A stretch of DNA of 64,000 bases from positions 1 through 64,000 of the forward strand of contig LUUF01000059.1 of the NCBI GenBank assembly GCA_001644045.1. Reading direction: 5' to 3'. This document shows positions 25,014 to 34,837 of the stretch, one piece after another; position 1 is the first letter of the stretch; each line of letters opens with the position of its first letter. Source of the stretch: Methylomonas methanica (GTDB lineage Bacteria; Pseudomonadota; Gammaproteobacteria; Methylococcales; Methylomonadaceae). Below the pieces are notes generated by a model. That model ran no database searches, had not been told where the DNA came from, and saw nothing but the letters and a program-made list of their open reading frames with translations. A program made the position numbers and the translations under genes.

Positions 25014-27143
25014 CTAAGCAGCCTGCGACACATAATGCTGTTCGCCAAGCGCGGCGTCGGCGATGGCTTGTAAATCAATAACCCTATCCACCGACGCGAT
25101 GGTTTCCGGGCGATGGGCGATAATGATGCGGGTCAGTTTTAGTTGCTGCACCGCGCCGTTCACCAGCTTTTCGCGGGCTACGTCCAGGTGGCTGGTGGCT
25201 TCGTCCAGCACCAAAATTTTTGGGCGTTTGTATAAAGCGCGTGCCAGCAACACCCGTTGTTTTTGGCCGCCGGACAACACCGTGCCCATGTCACCGATCA
25301 GTGTGTTGTAAGCCATCGGCATGGTCATCACATCCTGATGCACCGCCGCCAGTTGCGCGCAGGTTTCTATCCAGGCTTGATCGGGTTCCGGATCGAAGAA
25401 GCAGATATTGTCGGCAATCGAGCCGGCGAATAATTGATCTTCCTGCATCACCGCCGCCACCATATTGCGGTAATCGTGGCTGTCGATGCGGTTCAGGCGC
25501 ACACCGCCGATCAGGATTTCGCCGGCACTGGGCTGCAACAATCCCAGGATCAGTTTGGCCAGCGTGGTTTTGCCGTAACCGGATGGGCCAATGATCGCCA
25601 CCGACTCGCCCTCGGCAAAATCCAGGTTCAGATTTTTCAGTACCGGCGGCTCGGACGGTGCGTAACTGAAATCCAGATTGCGGATTTGGATCGATGCTGG
25701 CAGTTGATCTTGTCTGGCCCCGCTGCAATGCTCTTGCTCGGGTTCCGCCAGCGCTATATCGGCGACTCGCTCGGTATGCAAACCCAGCATTTTGAATTCG
25801 ATGCCTTTCTCTATGAAACTGCCGACCCGGTGGGTGAATTGGTCTTTAAACGACATAAACGCAAACAGCATTCCCACCGAAAAGCCGCCATCCAGAATGA
25901 ACAACGCTCCCAGCCAAATCACCGCAATGTTTTCCACGCCAAACAATAGGCTGTTTAGCGCGCGGTAAATAATATTGAGCTTTTGCACGCGAATGCCGGC
26001 ATTGAAATGATCGACCATCAGGTTTTGATAGCCATGCCGGCGTTGTAGCTGCCGGTTGAATAATTTCACGCTCTGCATACCGCGCACCGTTTCCAATAAA
26101 TTGGTTTGCTGCTTGGCGGCGCGCAGGATCTGCTCTTCGCTGGCGGCACGCAACGGCGCGAACGAAACCAAGCGTAATAGGCCGTAGAGCAGCGCGGCCA
26201 GGCTGACGATGGCTGCCAGTTTCCAGCTGTACACCAGCATCATGCCCAAGGTCACCAGCGCCATTACCCCGTCGATGATGGCTTCCAGGAAACTGGTGGT
26301 TAAGGTTCTTTGAATCACGTTCAACGATTCGAAGCGCGAGACGATGTCGCCCAGATGACGCTTCTCGAAAAAATTCATCGGCAACTGCAACAAATGCCCG
26401 AACAGATTGCTCATCATCTGCAAATTAACCGAAGTACTGAGTACCAGCACCACCCAGGAGCGTAGCGCGGTGATGCCTATCTGGATCAAGGCCAGCAATA
26501 AAAATCCCAAACCCAGCACCGTCAATAAATTGGTATCCCGAGCGACCACCGCGTTATCCACCACCAGTTGCATAAAAAAAGGCGCTACGATTGCAAACAC
26601 TTCTATGGCAGCAGCCAATAAAATGATTTGCAAGGTAGCGCTGGAGGCACCATTCAACTGGCCGATGAGGCGGGAAAGCTTGATTTGTTGACGTTCGGTT
26701 TTTGCGGTAAAGGCTTGGGTAGGCTGCAACTCCAATGCGATGCCGGTGAAATGTTTGGAGACTTCGGTAAAAGGCAAGTTGACGGTGCCTTTGGCCGGAT
26801 CGTGTATCGTCGCCACGCCGCGCTTAACCTGGGTCAACACCACGAAATGATTGAAATCCCAATGCAAGATGGCCGGCAAGCTAAGTTTGCTCAGTTCGTT
26901 CAAATCCACCCGCACCGGCCGCGACCCCAGATGCAATTGGTTGGCGATCTGGATCAGATGATTCAAGGTCGAACCTTTCAGCGAAAGCGAAAACTTCTGC
27001 CGCAGGCTGGCCAAATCCACCCGGTGTCCATGAAAATTGGCCACCATCGCCAGGCAAGCCAGGCCGCATTCGGCCGCTTCGGTTTGCAGGATCAGCGGGG
27101 TTTTTCTCCGGCCGGAAAAGTCGAGGATATGTTGCATAGTCAT
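25014..27143 (-). CDS. Peptidase-containing ABC transporter (C39-TM-NBD) for double-glycine peptides
   Basis: About 709 residues with three domains. The N-terminal C39 peptidase has catalytic Cys (TEAAECGLACLAM, about residue 26), His (HWDFNHFVVL) and Asp (HDPAKG). The membrane domain (about 155-440) has six helices. The nucleotide-binding domain has Walker A GPSGYGKTT, signature LSGGQKQRVLLARAL and Walker B ILVLDEATSHLD. This type cuts the leader after Gly-Gly and exports the core. The preferred start at 27143 is two bases after the HlyD stop; the upstream 27188 start overlaps that gene. The two double-glycine precursors 1.7-2.2 kb upstream on the same strand are its evident substrates. Confidence 0.92.
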   Translation of the reverse strand: MTMQHILDFSGRRKTPLILQTEAAECGLACLAMVANFHGHRVDLASLRQKFSLSLKGSTLNHLIQIANQLHLGSRPVRVDLNELSKLSLPAILHWDFNHFVVLTQVKRGVATIHDPAKGTVNLPFTEVSKHFTGIALELQPTQAFTAKTERQQIKLSRLIGQLNGASSATLQIILLAAAIEVFAIVAPFFMQLVVDNAVVARDTNLLTVLGLGFLLLALIQIGITALRSWVVLVLSTSVNLQMMSNLFGHLLQLPMNFFEKRHLGDIVSRFESLNVIQRTLTTSFLEAIIDGVMALVTLGMMLVYSWKLAAIVSLAALLYGLLRLVSFAPLRAASEEQILRAAKQQTNLLETVRGMQSVKLFNRQLQRRHGYQNLMVDHFNAGIRVQKLNIIYRALNSLLFGVENIAVIWLGALFILDGGFSVGMLFAFMSFKDQFTHRVGSFIEKGIEFKMLGLHTERVADIALAEPEQEHCSGARQDQLPASIQIRNLDFSYAPSEPPVLKNLNLDFAEGESVAIIGPSGYGKTTLAKLILGLLQPSAGEILIGGVRLNRIDSHDYRNMVAAVMQEDQLFAGSIADNICFFDPEPDQAWIETCAQLAAVHQDVMTMPMAYNTLIGDMGTVLSGGQKQRVLLARALYKRPKILVLDEATSHLDVAREKLVNGAVQQLKLTRIIIAHRPETIASVDRVIDLQAIADAALGEQHYVSQAA

Positions 27144-27145
27144 GG

Positions 27146-28393
27146 TTAAACCCGTCCTAGAATGCTGTAAAGAGGATCGAATACCCATTCGATAAGGCGG
27201 CGATGATCCAGCCAGATGTCGGCATCCAGCAGCATGCCGGATTGCAGCGGAATATCCTGGCGATAGGCTTGCACCGCTTGTTTATCGATCTCGACGGTGA
27301 CCCGGTACACCGGCTCTTGCAAAGTCACCGGTAAATCGGCTTCCTTGGGTGTAATCAAGGTTTTGGCGATTTCGACGATGCGGCCTTGATGACTGCCGAA
27401 GCGTTGATAGGGAAAGGCTTGATAACGCACCGAAACAGTCTGCCCTTGCTCGACAAACCCCACCGCACTGGACGGCACTAACAATTGGGCTTGCAATTTG
27501 GCGCCTAGCGGCAGGATGGACAGCAAGGGATTGGCGGTCGTGGCGTTTTGCCCCTGCTCGGCCAGGATGGTGGTGACGGTGCCGTCGTGCGGCGCAGTGA
27601 TTACGATGTTGCGGCGCGATTCGGATTCGGTAATGTTTTGCGCCAAGGTGGAAATATTGCGCTCGATGGCCGCGCGCTGATTCTTAAATTTCATCTGGCT
27701 ACTGTCCGCTTCCAACTGCGCGGAACGGATGTCGCGTTGTAAGGTCATCTGTACCCGTTGCAAGGCTTGCAACTTGGCTTGGTGATCCAGCCATTCGTCT
27801 TGTTTTTGTTGTGCTTGCACCGCCGAAACGAATTTCGTCGTCAGCAGTTGCTGATAGCGCTGCGAGGTCGCGGCGGCGCCGGCCAGGCGCTGCTGCTGGG
27901 TGTCTATTTCGCTATTGACCTGCTGCAACTCGCGTTGCATGCCATGCAGCCTGTCTAACACTGAGCGGTATTGAATCTGGTCGATTTGCTCTTGCTTCAC
28001 CAGCTCGGTTTCCAGGCTTTCCCGGCGCTGCTTCAATTGTTCAATAGCCGCGGCCTGGGCTTGCGGGGTTTCCCGCGAACTGCTCTCGGTGGACAACACG
28101 AACAGCGTATCGCCGGCCTTGACGGCTTGACCTTCGCGTATGTGCTTTTCAATCAAGGTGCCGGCCTGCGGCGCGTAGACTTTGATTAAACCCATGCTCG
28201 GCGACAAGTAGCCGTTCACATGGGATTTACGGGTGTACTCGCCCCAAAAGGCAAAGGCCATCAGCACCAAGGCACTGCTTACGGCTAAAGCGGTGAGAAA
28301 GGAAAACGACAAAGATTCCACGTGAATAACCTCCCCTAAGGGCTTGTCTTTTTTAAAGTCCAAGGCTTGTTGTCGAAATAACTCATGTTTCAT
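27146..28393 (-). CDS. HlyD-family membrane fusion protein (peptide export adaptor)
   Basis: 415 residues. One membrane helix (SFLTALAVSSALVLMAFAFWG, about residues 30-50), a biotinyl-lipoyl-like half domain (KVYAPQAGTLIEKHIREGQAV), a long coiled coil (about 110-250, rich in Gln/Glu/Leu) and a beta-barrel with APHDGTVTTILAEQGQ. This is the periplasmic adaptor that joins the ABC exporter to an outer-membrane channel of the TolC type; no TolC gene is in the window. Gene order and two-base spacing to the exporter mark one operon. Confidence 0.9.
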   Translation of the reverse strand: MKHELFRQQALDFKKDKPLGEVIHVESLSFSFLTALAVSSALVLMAFAFWGEYTRKSHVNGYLSPSMGLIKVYAPQAGTLIEKHIREGQAVKAGDTLFVLSTESSSRETPQAQAAAIEQLKQRRESLETELVKQEQIDQIQYRSVLDRLHGMQRELQQVNSEIDTQQQRLAGAAATSQRYQQLLTTKFVSAVQAQQKQDEWLDHQAKLQALQRVQMTLQRDIRSAQLEADSSQMKFKNQRAAIERNISTLAQNITESESRRNIVITAPHDGTVTTILAEQGQNATTANPLLSILPLGAKLQAQLLVPSSAVGFVEQGQTVSVRYQAFPYQRFGSHQGRIVEIAKTLITPKEADLPVTLQEPVYRVTVEIDKQAVQAYRQDIPLQSGMLLDADIWLDHRRLIEWVFDPLYSILGRV

Positions 28394-28438
28394 AGCGCCG
28401 TTTCCTTCTCACCATTTTTGACATTGCGACCAAAACCC

Positions 28439-28873
28439 TCAGAGAACGCCGTAGTCGGCCGCCCGCCGCATGTCTTCGGTCGGCTTGAGGTTATTGGTCA
28501 CCACTTGCGGACATCTGAAGCACGCCGAGCGGCCTTCCTGTAGCCACCAACGACAGTCGGCACGAATTGCGCACACCGGCAATTGCTCGGTGACCGTCGG
28601 CGTAAAACGCACGACTTTTTCAGCCAGCCGGCATTTGGATTCCGCCTCCGCATAGTGCCCGCAACCGGTGCAGGCGCATGGCGCGGAGAAGCGGAATACT
28701 TCCGCCGGACTGACGGGACCGGCCAATTCGAGCAATTGCTCGGTCACCGGTTGCGGGGCATTCAGATAGGCCATTTCCGGTTTATCCGCGGTGCCGGTCA
28801 TCACCCCGATGACTTGAGCACCTTCCCATTCCGGCTGCGCGCTGGGGCATAACACTGGGTTATCCGAGGTCAT
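28439..28873 (-). CDS. Eight-cysteine protein of the peptide-export operon, function unknown
   Basis: About 144 residues. The C-terminal half holds a dense cysteine pattern: CACTGCGHY, then SKCRLAE, then PVCAIRADCRWW, then SACFRCPQVVTNN, eight Cys plus one near the N-terminus. The spacing fits two Fe-S clusters or zinc sites (inference). I recall similar Cys-rich proteins ending in CRCPQVVT beside peptide-export operons of other bacteria, but no function. It starts eight bases after the stop of the 91-residue precursor; an earlier start at 28930 overlaps that gene and is unlikely. The position between precursors and exporter suggests a role in maturation, immunity or regulation. Confidence 0.6.
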   Translation of the reverse strand: MTSDNPVLCPSAQPEWEGAQVIGVMTGTADKPEMAYLNAPQPVTEQLLELAGPVSPAEVFRFSAPCACTGCGHYAEAESKCRLAEKVVRFTPTVTEQLPVCAIRADCRWWLQEGRSACFRCPQVVTNNLKPTEDMRRAADYGVL

Positions 28874-28880
28874 GGCGCTA

Positions 28881-29156
28881 TCAACCCAGCTGGGTTGCTC
28901 CTTGAATGCCACCGGCCAGACCGCCGGCACCGGGATTGGTTACGACGTTGTTTAAGCCCTTAAACTGATCGAACCAGGGACCGCCGGCAATGATGCCTTT
29001 GGTAAGCAAAACGCTTAAGCCACCACTGACTTGATCCAATTGGTCCGGATTCAACTCAATACCGGCAGCTTCGCGGGCTTTCAAGGCGCGCTCGATGCCT
29101 TGCGCGGCAAAGGCTGAGAGTTCGTCTGAAGAAATTCGAGTGGTTTTGTTTGACAT
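28881..29156 (-). CDS. Double-glycine precursor peptide 2
   Basis: 91 residues. The leader ends in GIELNPDQLDQVSGG, with the hydrophobic spacing recognised by C39 peptidases; the leader is about 46 residues long. The predicted core has 45 residues, LSVLLTKGIIAGGPWFDQF then a Gly-rich tail with NPGAGGLAGGIQGATQ. It has no Cys and only one Thr/Ser-poor tail, so lanthionine chemistry is unlikely; the Gly-rich amphipathic character resembles pore-forming class II bacteriocins. AGGA lies eight bases before the ATG. It is downstream of precursor 1 by 30 bases and shares the NPGA motif with it. Confidence 0.75.
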   Translation of the reverse strand: MSNKTTRISSDELSAFAAQGIERALKAREAAGIELNPDQLDQVSGGLSVLLTKGIIAGGPWFDQFKGLNNVVTNPGAGGLAGGIQGATQLG

Positions 29157-29186
29157 AACAATTATCCTAAATAAATTGAAAAAGCC

Positions 29187-29372
29187 TTATCTCGCGACGA
29201 GATTGGCAACAGCGACTTTAATGTTGAACGCACCGGGATTGATAACCGGCCAAAATTTGCGCGGAAATTGGCTTAAATCTTGATCCGGGCCAATATTGCC
29301 GCCGGACACCCGATTTAAATCCTTTGCTTGCAAGACTTTCAGGTCTTGATCGAATTTGGATGTTTGAGACAT
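29187..29372 (-). CDS. Double-glycine precursor peptide 1
   Basis: 61 residues, chosen from the ATG at 29372 because AAGGAG lies seven bases upstream. The short leader ends in LQAKDLNRVSGG (about 25 residues). The predicted core of 36 residues, starting NIGPDQDLSQF, has no Cys and ends in a hydrophobic VAVANLVAR. The core contains INPGAF, matching TNPGAG of precursor 2. Together they look like a two-peptide product. First gene of the peptide operon. Confidence 0.75.
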   Translation of the reverse strand: MSQTSKFDQDLKVLQAKDLNRVSGGNIGPDQDLSQFPRKFWPVINPGAFNIKVAVANLVAR

Positions 29373-29673: not shown

Positions 29674-30141
29674 CTAATTGGCCTGAACGATCAAGCCCAA
29701 AATATTCTCCGCAGGGTTTTGCGCGTCTGCTTGCGGCACACCGGCGGCTTCCAGGGAAATGACGATATCGCCGTCGACAGTTTGAATCGGCGCTTGCCAT
29801 AAGGCAGGCGTCGCGGTTTCTTCCAGCGACGATGAGGGAACGGGCGGTTGGGCGGCTTCAAGAGGATCGGTTCGTTCAACCGTATTCTGCAGCAGCTTGG
29901 TAGTGTTATTGCCGGCCGGCTCGTCCGAATCGGATCTCTCCAGGGACTGCGCGCCGTTGCTTGCCACAGCGTTTGGCGACGTATCCTGGTTAATATTCGA
30001 TGGGTTGGTGCGCAAAGCACCTGTTTCAGAGTAGCCCGCTACCGGCCAGGTCTCAAGCAGGCCAACTCTCCCAATCCAGATCCCGTACAGCAACACCAGC
30101 ATCAATACTATGGCTTGACGATGAGCAACGGAATTAAACAT
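29674..30141 (-). CDS. Membrane-anchored Pro/Thr/Ser-rich protein of unknown function
   Basis: 155 residues. The ATG at 30141 is preceded by GAGGT four bases upstream; an earlier start at 30231 lacks this. One membrane segment (QAIVLMLVLLYGIWIGRVGLL) is followed by about 120 soluble residues rich in Asn, Ser, Pro and Glu. The end, GDIVISLEAAGVPQADAQNPAENILGLIVQAN, looks folded. It resembles a pilus- or export-accessory protein only in general layout. It is upstream of the peptide operon on the same strand with a 300-base gap, so co-transcription is uncertain. Confidence 0.5.
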   Translation of the reverse strand: MFNSVAHRQAIVLMLVLLYGIWIGRVGLLETWPVAGYSETGALRTNPSNINQDTSPNAVASNGAQSLERSDSDEPAGNNTTKLLQNTVERTDPLEAAQPPVPSSSLEETATPALWQAPIQTVDGDIVISLEAAGVPQADAQNPAENILGLIVQAN

Positions 30142-30310
30142 ATCGACCTCGATATAGGATGGCTGCAAAAGTCGCGGAACAGATATGGCGCACAGTAGCC
30201 GGCTTGCAGCAGGATAGCGTTTGGAAATCAACGCGAATTCAATACGTTGAAACCTGATGCAGTCTATTGCCGCAAAAGATGGAGGTCTGTGATTTAATTG
30301 ACTGGAAATG

Positions 30311-30424: not shown

Positions 30425-31090
30425 ATGCAAGCAGAAGTCATCGCCAGTCTGAGCAACATCCCTTTTCTCGCCGGTTTGCCCGAGGAGGCTTTGGAAGCTT
30501 TGGCATCAAGGGCCAAAGTCATTAAATTCCCGAAAAAAGCGATGATCATCGCCGAGGGCGACCAGACCAGTTCGCTGTACATTATTTTATCCGGCAAGGT
30601 GCGGGTGTTCGGCAGCAACGACAAAGACAAGGAAGTAACCTTATTGATTCAGGAAGCCGGCTCGTATTTCGGCGAATTGGCCTTGCTTAGCGACGAACCC
30701 CGTTCCGCCGCTGTCGAAGCCCAGGAAAAGACCGTCTGCGCGGTAATCGCCAAAACCGATTTTATTCACTGGTTGAAACTGCACCCCGATGCAGCGATTG
30801 CGTTGCTTAAAGTATTGTCGGAAAAGGTCCGCTTCCTGACCGAGAAAGTCAAACAAATGGCCTTATCGAATGTTTACGAACGCACCATTAAAGTGCTGCA
30901 AGACATGGCGGAAAAGGAAGGCGACGTGTATGTGATTCATAACCGTCCAACCCAGCAAGAGCTGGCGACGATGGTGGGTTCGTCTCGGGAAATGATAAAC
31001 AAAGTGATGAAAGAACTGACCAAGGGCGGTTATATCAGCGTGGATGAAAAAATCCTCAGAATCGAAACCACGCCGCCGGCCTCTTGGTGA
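30425..31090 (+). CDS. Crp/Fnr-family regulator with a cAMP-type binding pocket
   Basis: 221 residues. The N-terminal cyclic-nucleotide-binding fold (residues about 15-135) has the phosphate-binding cassette YFGELALLSDEPRSAAVEA, with the Glu and Arg-Ser that contact cAMP in CRP. A long dimer helix follows, then a C-terminal helix-turn-helix (RPTQQELATMVGSSREMINKVMKEL). It lacks the Cys cluster of Fnr. It should therefore bind a cyclic nucleotide. A class III cyclase is encoded 4.4 kb downstream on the same strand, and a CRP-type site lies in its own upstream region, consistent with autoregulation (inference). Confidence 0.88.
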   Translation: MQAEVIASLSNIPFLAGLPEEALEALASRAKVIKFPKKAMIIAEGDQTSSLYIILSGKVRVFGSNDKDKEVTLLIQEAGSYFGELALLSDEPRSAAVEAQEKTVCAVIAKTDFIHWLKLHPDAAIALLKVLSEKVRFLTEKVKQMALSNVYERTIKVLQDMAEKEGDVYVIHNRPTQQELATMVGSSREMINKVMKELTKGGYISVDEKILRIETTPPASW

Positions 31091-31420: not shown

Positions 31421-34400
31421 ATGCGCTGCCTTGTGATTTGCTTCATGGTTTTATTTGCGCCAATGTGTTTGGCGGAAACCGATGCGACTGCGACAAGCTG
31501 TAGCGAAGAAAAGGCCGCCAAACTGGTTTCACTGCAAGGCACCTTGTTTTACGACGTTGGTGCCAAGGGACAATGGCAACCGGCACAGTTGGAGCAAACG
31601 CTGTGCGAAGGCAGTCGGATTCGAGTCGAAGCCTACAGTCGCGCATCCTTGCTACTACCCAACGGCATCACGTTGCGCTTGGCCGAAGGCACCGTCTTGA
31701 CGTTAAACGGCATCGCCCCCAACCAACCCACTTTGGTGGATTTGCTGAAAGGTTTTGTACATTTCATCAGCCGCACCCCCAAGCAGTTACAAATCACTAC
31801 CCCCATCGCCAACGCCGGCCCGGAAGGCACCGAGTTTGCATTGCGCGCCGACGATACCAGCGCCGATTTATGGGTTTACGAAGGCGCAGTACGCTTTTTC
31901 AATACTTACGGCGACATTCACCTAAAGGCCGGAGAAGCCGGACAAACCTTGTTGGGCCAGGCCCCGCGCGCGCAAATCGATCTTAAACCCGGCGACGCGG
32001 TGAACTGGGCCTTGTACTACCCACCGCTATTGCCCTATTCAGAGCCTGATGCGGCTAAAGCCCCTGCTCTGCACGCCGCAATTCAGCATTATCGGCAAGG
32101 CCGGGTCGATGCGGCTCTAACAGCGCTGGACCGGATTCCGCAGGCAGAACATTCAGCCGAGTTTTTGAAAGCCCGCGCGGCAATCAGACTGACAGCCGGA
32201 CAAAGCCAGTTGGCGATGCAGGACATTCAAGCCTTGCGATCCAGCAATGCGAATGACGCAGACGCTTCGGCTCTGGAAAGTATCCTGGCGCTCACCCAAA
32301 ATCGCAAAGCCGACGCACTGAGTCTGGCCGAGCGCGCGGTGGCGGCAAATCCGCAATCGGCGACTGCTTATTCGGCGTTATCCTACAGCCAACAAGCCGG
32401 CTTCGAACTGGAAAAAGCCCTGGCTGCGGCGCGGCATGCCAGCCAACTTGCACCAAACGATGCAATGACGTGGGCGCGTTTGTCCGAGCTGCAATTGGCG
32501 CTGGGCTTACGCTCGGAAAGCGCGCAATCGGCGACTAAAGCGTTTATGCTCGATCCGAATTTAGAGAGAACCCAAACCGTGCAAGGCTTTTCGCAACTGT
32601 TCCGGGTGGATACAGCTCAAGCTTTAAAGCATTTCGAAGCCGCCGTACAGTTGGATTCTACCGCGCCGCTACCGCGCCTGGGCTTGGGTCTAACAAAAAT
32701 TCGCAGCGGCGATCTGGAAGCTGGCCGCCGCGATCTGGAAATTGCCGCTATTCTCAATCCTAATGATTCATTGCTACGCAGCTATCTAGGCAAAGCCTAT
32801 TACGAAGAAAAACGCCCGGCGTTGGCCGGCGATCAATTCGACCTGGCGAAGCAACACGATCCGAAAGATCCAACGCCGTATTTCTACGATGCACTGCGCA
32901 AGCAATCCTTGAATCGCCCGGTCGAAGCCCTGCGCGACATGCAGCAATCCATAGAGCTGAACGAAAATCGTGGCGTGTACCGTTCGAAACTGCTGCTGGA
33001 CGAAGACGCCGCAGCCCGTACCGCCAACTTAGCGAGAATTTACAACGATTTGGGGTTTGGGAGGGTTGCGTTGAAGGAAGCTTGGAAATCCTTGGGCCAG
33101 GACGCCACCAATCCTTCGGCCCACCGTTTCCTCTCGGATTCGTACGTTGGGCAGCCCCGTTACCGGGTAGCCAGAGCCAGCGAACTATTGCAGGCGCAGT
33201 TGCTGCAACCGATTAATATCACCCCGGTACAACCGCAACTGACCGGCGAGAATATCGGCATTCTGAACAGTACCGGGCCGGGCAGTTTATCGGTCAACGA
33301 GTACGATTCCTTGTATACCGCTAACGGCGCGCATATGGTCTTGAATGGCGCCTACGGTAGCCGCAACACCCTCACCGACAACGCCATTGTCTCTGGCGTG
33401 TACGACAAACTGTCGATGAGTTTTGGACAGTTTCATTATCAAACCGACGGTTTTCGGCAAAACGACGACTATAAACAAGACATTTACGATGCGTTTGCCC
33501 AATACGCCATCACCCAGGATTTAAATGTCCAGGTGGAATTAAAGACCGAGGATGTTCGTAGCGGGGATACGCCTTTTCGGTTGAATGGATTCAGTGCGGA
33601 CAACCAAAGACAAACCGTGAAGCAAGACACTGCGCGAGTAGGTGCACACTACCGAATAGATAACCACCAGGACATATTATTTTCGTCTTTCTATACAACC
33701 CGCAAGAACGAAATCAATGACCGCATATTAACCGTCGCTGGTCCCATTAGCTTCAACCGCTTTACCGACGATATATCGGACACTAAAAGCTACCAAACCG
33801 AGTTACAGTATATTTTTAATCATGAAGATTTCGATATAACTAGTGGCGCCGGTTATATTAATTCCGATAATGACATTTTATCCAAAAGTTTGGGGAGAAG
33901 AACCACTCCGCCTTTTGCCGTGACAACCAGCCCGCTATTTACCTTTTCAACCCCCAGCGAGCGGCAAACAGAATATTTCAATATCTACAGTTATTTGAAA
34001 TATAAGCTTTCATCCGAGTTAAACACTACATTAGGTTTGAGTTACGATTCTTACGAAGTCGGCACATTTAAAAAGTATCAATTGAACCCGAAGCTTGGGA
34101 TTATTTGGACTCCGACGCAAAGCCTGACTTTACGTGGCGCAGCCTTCCGAACCATCAAAAGACCGCTAACCAACAATCAAACAATAGAACCCACCCAAGT
34201 AGCCGGTTTCAATCAATTCTACGACGAGAATAACGGTGCTGCAGCTTGGCAATATGCTGGAGGCATCGATTACAAACCTACGCAAAATCTGTTTATGGGT
34301 GGCGAACTTAGTTGGCGAGACAGTCAACAAACTATTTCCAATATTTCCACTCAATTTAGCCGAAATGAAGCGGCACATTTAGCTTATCTGTATTGGTCGC

Positions 34401-34837
34401 CTAGCGATTGGCTAACTTTAAAAAGCGAATATCGTTTCGAGAAATTCAAACGAGAGTTTGCGAATAATCTAGATCCAGCGAATCCGCGCAGTGTCGCCTC
34501 TCATCAGGTGCCGTTATCCATTAACCTGTTTCATACATCCGGTCTTTTCGCCAAGTTATCCGGCACTTTTGTAGACCAGCACGCCACATCGAGTAGGCTT
34601 TTAGCCGGCCTTTCCGCCAATACGCCAAGATTTACAGGCGACAGCGAAAGCTTCTGGGTTTTCGATGCCATGCTGGGCTATCGTCTGCCCAACAGACTGG
34701 GCACTCTGGCGCTGGAAGGCCGTAACTTATTCGACAACAACTTTGTTTACCAAAGCGTATTCGACGCCAGCGGCCCCCAACTTAGCCCTTTTATCCCTGA
34801 GCGACAATTATTCGTCAAACTGAGTTTGTTTTATTAA
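31421..34837 (+). CDS. FecR-TPR-outer-membrane-barrel fusion protein
   Basis: 1138 residues. After a signal peptide (cut after MCLA, residue 18) comes a FecR domain (about 35-180: LVSLQGTLFYD, SRIRVEAYSRASLLLPNG, ITTPIANAGPEGTEFAL). Residues about 200-600 are tandem TPR repeats. From about 630 to the end is a beta-barrel of alternating aromatic strands (KLSMSFGQFHY, YLKYKLSSELNTTLGLSYD, LFAKLSGTFVDQ), closing with LFVKLSLFY, whose last aromatic residue fits BAM recognition. The barrel resembles TonB-dependent-receptor barrels but has no plug or TonB box. It is thus one chain from periplasm to outer membrane, likely a sensor or export channel. It is followed by a lipoprotein and a CHASE2 cyclase. 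Confidence 0.8.
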   Translation: MRCLVICFMVLFAPMCLAETDATATSCSEEKAAKLVSLQGTLFYDVGAKGQWQPAQLEQTLCEGSRIRVEAYSRASLLLPNGITLRLAEGTVLTLNGIAPNQPTLVDLLKGFVHFISRTPKQLQITTPIANAGPEGTEFALRADDTSADLWVYEGAVRFFNTYGDIHLKAGEAGQTLLGQAPRAQIDLKPGDAVNWALYYPPLLPYSEPDAAKAPALHAAIQHYRQGRVDAALTALDRIPQAEHSAEFLKARAAIRLTAGQSQLAMQDIQALRSSNANDADASALESILALTQNRKADALSLAERAVAANPQSATAYSALSYSQQAGFELEKALAAARHASQLAPNDAMTWARLSELQLALGLRSESAQSATKAFMLDPNLERTQTVQGFSQLFRVDTAQALKHFEAAVQLDSTAPLPRLGLGLTKIRSGDLEAGRRDLEIAAILNPNDSLLRSYLGKAYYEEKRPALAGDQFDLAKQHDPKDPTPYFYDALRKQSLNRPVEALRDMQQSIELNENRGVYRSKLLLDEDAAARTANLARIYNDLGFGRVALKEAWKSLGQDATNPSAHRFLSDSYVGQPRYRVARASELLQAQLLQPINITPVQPQLTGENIGILNSTGPGSLSVNEYDSLYTANGAHMVLNGAYGSRNTLTDNAIVSGVYDKLSMSFGQFHYQTDGFRQNDDYKQDIYDAFAQYAITQDLNVQVELKTEDVRSGDTPFRLNGFSADNQRQTVKQDTARVGAHYRIDNHQDILFSSFYTTRKNEINDRILTVAGPISFNRFTDDISDTKSYQTELQYIFNHEDFDITSGAGYINSDNDILSKSLGRRTTPPFAVTTSPLFTFSTPSERQTEYFNIYSYLKYKLSSELNTTLGLSYDSYEVGTFKKYQLNPKLGIIWTPTQSLTLRGAAFRTIKRPLTNNQTIEPTQVAGFNQFYDENNGAAAWQYAGGIDYKPTQNLFMGGELSWRDSQQTISNISTQFSRNEAAHLAYLYWSPSDWLTLKSEYRFEKFKREFANNLDPANPRSVASHQVPLSINLFHTSGLFAKLSGTFVDQHATSSRLLAGLSANTPRFTGDSESFWVFDAMLGYRLPNRLGTLALEGRNLFDNNFVYQSVFDASGPQLSPFIPERQLFVKLSLFY

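Follow-up and report, generated by a model that had tools for sequence, protein, structure and literature searches.

What does a cysteine-rich protein do in an operon that otherwise holds only peptide precursors and the machinery to export them? The question is raised by the window analyzed here, a 64,000-nucleotide stretch of Methylomonas methanica contig LUUF01000059.1 (assembly GCA_001644045.1, positions 1 to 64,000), in which five genes form a compact operon on the minus strand at 25014–29372. The favored answer, to which a probability of about 0.5 is given, is that precursor 2 and the Cys-rich protein are a conserved pair within a peptide-export operon, with the Cys-rich protein handling precursor 2 before export. 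In operon order, the features are as follows:

29187–29372, minus strand: precursor 1 (P0002), 61 amino acids, with a leader ending in VSGG (29298–29372) and a predicted 36-residue core (29190–29297)
28881–29156, minus strand: precursor 2, the partner peptide (P0001), 91 amino acids, with a VSGG leader (29019–29156) and a predicted 45-residue core (28884–29018)
29061–29138, minus strand: N-terminal helix segment of precursor 2, RISSDELSAFAAQGIERALKAREAAG, common to partners of other phyla (alignment of 61 partners)
28962–28997, minus strand: GIIAGGPWFDQF stretch in the precursor 2 core, containing the I-I-x-G motif (partner alignment and motif count)
28439–28873, minus strand: Cys-rich protein (P0005), 144 amino acids, nine Cys, eight of them invariant
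27146–28393, minus strand: HlyD-type periplasmic adaptor (P0003), 415 amino acids (Pfam HlyD_3, 2.7e-16)
25014–27143, minus strand: C39-peptidase ATP-binding cassette (ABC) exporter (P0004), 709 amino acids from the ATG at 27143 (Pfam Peptidase_C39 PF03412, 4.5e-36; ABC_membrane; ABC_tran)

Open reading frames (ORFs) and Pfam matches place the five genes in the order and position proposed by an earlier note made from the sequence alone, with intergenic gaps of 30, 7, 45, and 2 bases. The two marks of a C39-exported double-glycine peptide are present: a leader ending in GG or GA (VSGG in both precursors) and a C39-peptidase ABC exporter with its adaptor (Pfam). TolC-family porins are found in the genome. 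The leader ends, the lengths of the predicted cores, and their lack of Cys also agree with that note. No known tailoring enzyme was detected among the five operon proteins with Pfam and NCBIfam, which leaves the Cys-rich protein as the sole candidate.

The Cys-rich protein had been described as an eight-cysteine protein; the count is nine, of which eight (C9, C66, C71, C81, C101, C107, C118, and C121) are invariant in 57 homologues. Trp and Arg residues are also fixed across phyla. Searches of Pfam, NCBIfam, PHROG, PADLOC, and PDB gave no credible family or fold match, and no structural match was found for its AlphaFold2 model, which is confident (predicted local distance difference test score, pLDDT, 92.3). 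The family extends through Proteobacteria, Cyanobacteria, Acidobacteria, Verrucomicrobia, Bacteroidota, Streptomyces, and phage contigs. The pairing of this protein with a partner peptide is conserved, which is the best-supported general claim of the analysis; the Cys-rich protein and the pair are new, and the export part of the operon is ordinary. Among the more unusual family members, a partial domain match in Methylocystis (G503:C55:23717-24007; positions 36–126, E 9.1e-17) lies within a 640-residue open frame and is perhaps part of a larger fusion. On two Streptomyces plasmids (L026, 7690–8435; L028, 7706–8435), the Cys-rich genes sit amid natural-product genes (condensation-domain or nonribosomal peptide synthetase genes and ATP-grasp peptide genes), and the small ORFs upstream encode signal-peptide-like N-termini and a C-terminal Cys.

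Across phyla, a small ORF usually lies directly upstream of the Cys-rich gene. The encoded partners have in common an N-terminal helix of the approximate form I-S-x-x-D/E-L-x-x-x-A-x-x-x-x-x-R-A-L-x-A-R, and many contain a short stretch such as IIAGG, IIYGG, IINGK, IICGF, or VILGIP. By these features, precursor 2 is clearly the Methylomonas member of the partner family encoded directly before the Cys-rich gene. A helix profile was built from 40 partners and used to scan up to 1 kb upstream in the loci with at least 600 bases of upstream sequence (n = 88). It identified an ORF in 52 of these, 14 of which were outside the training set and mostly close kin of its members; L103 and L025 are one record, and the L025 match is therefore not independent of that set. 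Among the 8,843 ORFs that the 98 loci contain, the profile gave 68 scores below 0.003 and then none until 0.04. All except two of the 68 (training members included) lie just upstream of a Cys-rich gene on the same strand. The remaining two look by eye like further partners: L046 has one after its Cys-rich gene, and the other, in the Microcoleus locus L061, is located ~1.8 kb upstream of that gene, matches the profile at E 0.0027, and holds LTLGIIYNP.

The partner alignment comprised 61 sequences (L099 omitted, its reading having wrongly merged two frames). After removal of eight near-duplicates, 39 of 53 partners contained a strict I-I-x-G-like motif, whereas 2,000 shuffles gave a mean of 9.5 and a maximum of 19; this enrichment is overstated because the motif was chosen after viewing the sequences and many partners are related. 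Two smaller observations concern the same upstream region. One is a string, LNPQPLPP, shared by small ORFs that precede the Cys-rich gene in different bacteria (L040, 5354–5572; L049, 7708–7965; L063, 6380–6583; L089, 7495–7638); a literature text search for NPQPLPP found no mention of it. A Zoogloeaceae contig (L044, 7718–9452) carries two partner/Cys-rich pairs in tandem, followed by the start of a HlyD gene.

Inheritance of the operon was followed in 101 genomes, the source genome and 100 relatives. Precursor 1, precursor 2, and the orthologous exporter were found in an identical set of 16 genomes, all of the same genus and including the source; the exporter is 77–98% identical in the other 15. 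The Cys-rich gene was found in 18: those 16, one fragmentary genome of the same genus, and one weak partial match in the same order. The fragmentary genome (G030) is 78% complete and has the Cys-rich gene on a 5,368-base contig; contig L039 of another collection, identical to it in length and coordinates, contains the start of HlyD and a precursor-1-like start. The co-occurrence of the operon parts in the same genomes exceeds chance. The nearest Cys-rich loci are from Methylomonas, the four nearest at 97–98% identity, which fits the earlier note's view of the host as methanotroph-like. Within the genus, the Cys-rich protein is better conserved relative to the source sequence (70–99% identity, 16 others) than either precursor 1 (53–89%) or precursor 2 (54–87%; 15 others each).

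Ratios of nonsynonymous to synonymous substitution (dN/dS) and core-motif counts were taken from 15 of the 16 genomes (G005 omitted), with saturated pairs dropped; the search pattern for the core motifs missed three precursor 1 sequences and one precursor 2 sequence known from homologue searches. As ratios of pairwise means, which are rough for sequences this short, precursor 2 gave 0.13 for the leader and 0.34 for the core (14 sequences), and precursor 1 gave 0.28 and 0.17, respectively (12 sequences). The similarly rough value for the Cys-rich protein was 0.14 (15 sequences). The precursor 2 core drifts, yet 12 of 14 genus sequences retain GIIAGG, with GVIAGG and GIINGG in the other two.

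Precursor 1 differs from this pattern. Its core block, DLSQFPRKFWPVINPG[AS], is nearly invariant in the 12 genus sequences, and NPG[AS] is kept in 12/12. The earlier note had pointed to NPGA in both cores. The string is there in the source sequence, but as a conserved link between the peptides it was rejected: only 2 of 14 precursor 2 sequences have it, the others having NQGA, NPTA, NPAA, NPAG, NPSA, or none of these. The proposal of a two-peptide system stands in that two peptides are encoded with an exporter, but the two are not a matched pair: precursor 2 belongs to a widespread partner family and precursor 1 is a separate short peptide outside it. Homologues of precursor 1 were found only within the genus among the 101 genomes; two short peptides related to it by eye are encoded at L040 and L041.

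An association between the Cys-rich protein and peptide exporters had been set beforehand as a test of the earlier note, and the outcome was divided. C39 or HlyD genes are nearby in 15 of 26 loci with a double-glycine partner versus 1 of 33 without; these are raw loci, not corrected for kinship and with differing flank lengths, omitting L044b, L103, and L099 and counting L063 as double-glycine by regular expression, where no such leader is seen by eye. The combination of double-glycine leader and C39 or HlyD genes recurs beside the pair in Gammaproteobacteria, Betaproteobacteria, Cyanobacteria, and Bacteroidota. Four betaproteobacterial genomes with a double-glycine partner lacking an adjacent exporter all have a C39 exporter elsewhere, and two of the four contain a further locus uniting partner, Cys-rich gene, HlyD, and C39-ABC (L116 and L117). 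L117 resembles the window operon, reading on the minus strand partner (core SYPIIAGGIFG), Cys-rich gene, short GG peptide ORF, HlyD, and C39-ABC. The association does not hold for most Acidobacterial pairs, which have no double glycine, no exporter, and no recurrent neighbor; no C39 exporter was found in three of three Acidobacterial genomes with non-GG partners. Pairs without a GG leader or nearby C39 gene also occur in some Alphaproteobacteria. The partners in Streptomyces and in phage contigs L031 and L032 have signal-like or transmembrane-like N-termini by eye.

Other routes appear in phages and cyanobacteria. A major facilitator superfamily (MFS) transporter gene follows the Cys-rich gene in all three phage contigs, and the row of small peptide, Cys-rich gene, and MFS transporter is possibly a phage-encoded peptide export cassette (L030, 4524–4697 and 4752–6695; L031, 4679–4957 and 5492–6691; L032, 4665–4880 and 4896–6546). 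PHROG matches beside the Cys-rich gene include an endolysin and structural proteins (L030), a DnaB helicase (L032), and only replication-type or unknown proteins (L031), and support a phage origin for these contigs. The phage peptides contain tandem glycine-rich repeats, five TGGASIR units in L030 and FGGGGD-type units in L031. In seven distinct cyanobacterial proteins (L069, L072, L079, L080, L083, L085, and L087; the L024 protein is identical to that of L083), the Cys-rich domain carries an N-terminal extension of ~90–140 residues, a segment of which is suggestive of the partner helix. Upstream of these extended genes lies an NHLP-type precursor, with G-hydrophobic-hydrophobic tails by eye in the cores (IGLVLDSLS, SIFAGFMPINNWLR, and PLIAGLIAVD). 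The natural-product island at Nostoc locus L024 contains SagB/TOMM (thiazole/oxazole-modified microcin) genes, a Nif11 radical S-adenosylmethionine (SAM) maturase, and Nif11 precursors, and in several cyanobacteria the Cys-rich gene is beside NHLP, Nif11, and radical SAM genes. This natural-product association supports a role in peptide biosynthesis.

Gene order, co-inheritance, the conserved pairing, the invariant cysteines, and the link between double glycine and exporter genes are direct observations, and the best reading of them is that the Cys-rich protein may serve in maturation or escort, bound to the precursor and probably to metal. The N-terminal helix of the partner would dock the peptide on the Cys-rich protein, whose eight invariant Cys probably hold two metal centers, either iron–sulfur or zinc. 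The protein would then handle the hydrophobic I-I-x-G-like core, either modifying it or maintaining its solubility. Cleavage after VSGG by the C39 domain would precede export, and the core would exit through the ABC exporter, HlyD, and a TolC-type porin whose gene lies outside the operon. Precursor 1 would be a second exported peptide of fixed sequence.

Several results weigh against this reading. No helix ORF was found at E<0.01 in 36 of the 88 scanned loci. The core motif was defined on the same partners in which it was counted, and it carried over poorly to new cores: of six later loci, four are preceded by a small ORF whose start looks leader-like by eye, and only two of those ORFs contain the strict motif, outside the position expected for it. 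It is present in two of seven NHLP cores, the others having only the looser G-hydrophobic-hydrophobic pattern by eye, and in the L117 partner but not the L116 partner. The helix-like segment of the cyanobacterial extensions matches the partner helix weakly (best E 0.07). One C39 domain match (198-amino acid frame, E 4.5e-15) in a Methylocystis genome whose partner is non-GG goes against a clean split by export route. Finally, the Acidobacterial-type partner is predicted to be folded, unlike a typical precursor (pLDDT 82.6); in this model, of Methylocystis L101 aligned with 23 relatives, a helix spans residues 9–26 and strands at 44–49 and 94–100 cover the two motifs.

Among the alternatives, the operon could encode an unmodified two-peptide bacteriocin of the class II microcin type, both cores being exported by C39-ABC/HlyD to kill relatives and the Cys-rich protein providing immunity. 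The GG leaders, exporter, and adaptor are all present, the ORF list offers no further gene of the operon with an obvious immunity role, and the Gly-rich core of precursor 2 goes with a Bacteriocin_IIc match (PF10439; E 0.001, 19.4 bits) that falls under the 27.1-bit cut-off and so leaves it outside that family. Immunity proteins usually track their toxins. Here, the Cys-rich protein is more conserved in the genus than the peptides, its eight Cys and its Trp and Arg residues are fixed across phyla, and the Acidobacterial proteins stand beside partners without a double glycine or a nearby exporter; an immunity role is less likely because of this higher conservation and these partners without a visible export signal. 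The near-fixed core of precursor 1 also looks unlike that of a fast-evolving bacteriocin. This explanation is considered unlikely.

Peptide signaling, with precursor 1 as a pheromone of fixed core and precursor 2 and the Cys-rich protein as a sensing or processing pair, is less probable still. It would fit the lower dN/dS of the precursor 1 core compared with its leader and the divergent Crp-type regulator gene nearby (30425–31090), but those ratios come from short sequences with saturated pairs dropped, and no receptor or histidine kinase gene lies within the operon. The pair is also distributed far more widely than precursor 1, which is confined to the genus in the survey apart from the two candidates noted by eye. 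A similarly low likelihood is given to a cytoplasmic two-protein complex of other function, whose Methylomonas partner merely gained a double-glycine leader. The Acidobacterial and Alphaproteobacterial pairs lacking GG leader and nearby C39 gene would suit such a complex, as would the folded Methylocystis model with its motifs on strands. Against it stand the recurrence of double-glycine leaders and C39/HlyD genes with the pair in four groups of bacteria, the signal-like or transmembrane-like N-termini in Streptomyces and two of three phage partners, and the MFS transporter in every phage contig. A lanthipeptide is ruled out, as the earlier note had held, by the absence of Cys from both cores and of any Lan synthetase among the five operon proteins and ten other window proteins scanned.

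The reading of the Cys-rich protein as a handling factor for precursor 2 can be extended, more tentatively, to an undescribed class of peptide maturation found in many phyla and in phages. In this class, a new-fold, two-metal Cys8 protein would recognize a helical leader and modify or escort cores with a short glycine-centered hydrophobic motif, sometimes in tandem repeats, and would be coupled by exchange to C39-ABC, MFS, or Sec-like exporters. The analysis gives a phylum-wide orphan protein family a clear partner and a function that can be tested. Should the Cys-rich protein act on the peptide, it would have no known counterpart among the maturation factors of described peptide natural products, and the gene pair would offer a way to locate many unannotated peptide loci, phage-encoded ones included.

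Class II microcins combine a double-glycine peptide with a C39-ABC exporter, an HlyD-type adaptor, and TolC. The operon resembles these and other C39-exported double-glycine peptides in its GG leader, exporter, adaptor, and compactness. It differs in its conserved Cys-rich protein and cross-phylum partner helix, in lacking a recognized immunity gene, and in having relatives in methanotrophs, Betaproteobacteria, Cyanobacteria, Acidobacteria, and others. A likeness to NHLP/Nif11 systems, as described in passages of two papers (Haft 2010, PMC2887384; Wang 2011, PMC3140520), lies in the exporter, which resembles TIGR03796 (491.6 bits; cut-off 853.3), and in HlyD, which resembles the NHLM HlyD TIGR03794 (70 bits; cut-off 156.2). 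Unlike those systems, the operon has no TOMM or radical SAM enzyme, and the precursors have no NHLP or Nif11 leader, neither TIGR03793 nor TIGR03798 matching P0001 or P0002 at E values up to 10. The Cys-rich protein is not mentioned in these passages or in those of PMC7159879 and PMC11964084. The CTB family bacteriocin NF038167, also a double-glycine peptide, matches precursor 2 weakly (E 0.39) and two betaproteobacterial partners at E 0.0066 and 0.022, all below the 32-bit cut-off; the best of these, the L045 partner, aligns over only 19 residues at the leader end. Consistent with the earlier note's suggestion that the system may be undescribed, no description of it or of the Cys-rich protein was found by sequence strings or feature combinations in the literature searched, most subscription journals lying outside its scope.

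A second C39-ABC exporter is encoded elsewhere in the source genome (G000:C63:14234-16237); it is 32% identical to the operon exporter, and no Cys-rich homologue was found on its contig. Approximately 300 bases upstream of precursor 1, an ORF on the minus strand (29677–30231) without a Pfam match resembles by eye a cluster of three other loci. Beyond it, the Crp-type regulator gene and a gene for a FecR/TPR/TonB-barrel protein (31421–34837) are divergent from the operon, and homologues of both recur across several Methylomonas loci.

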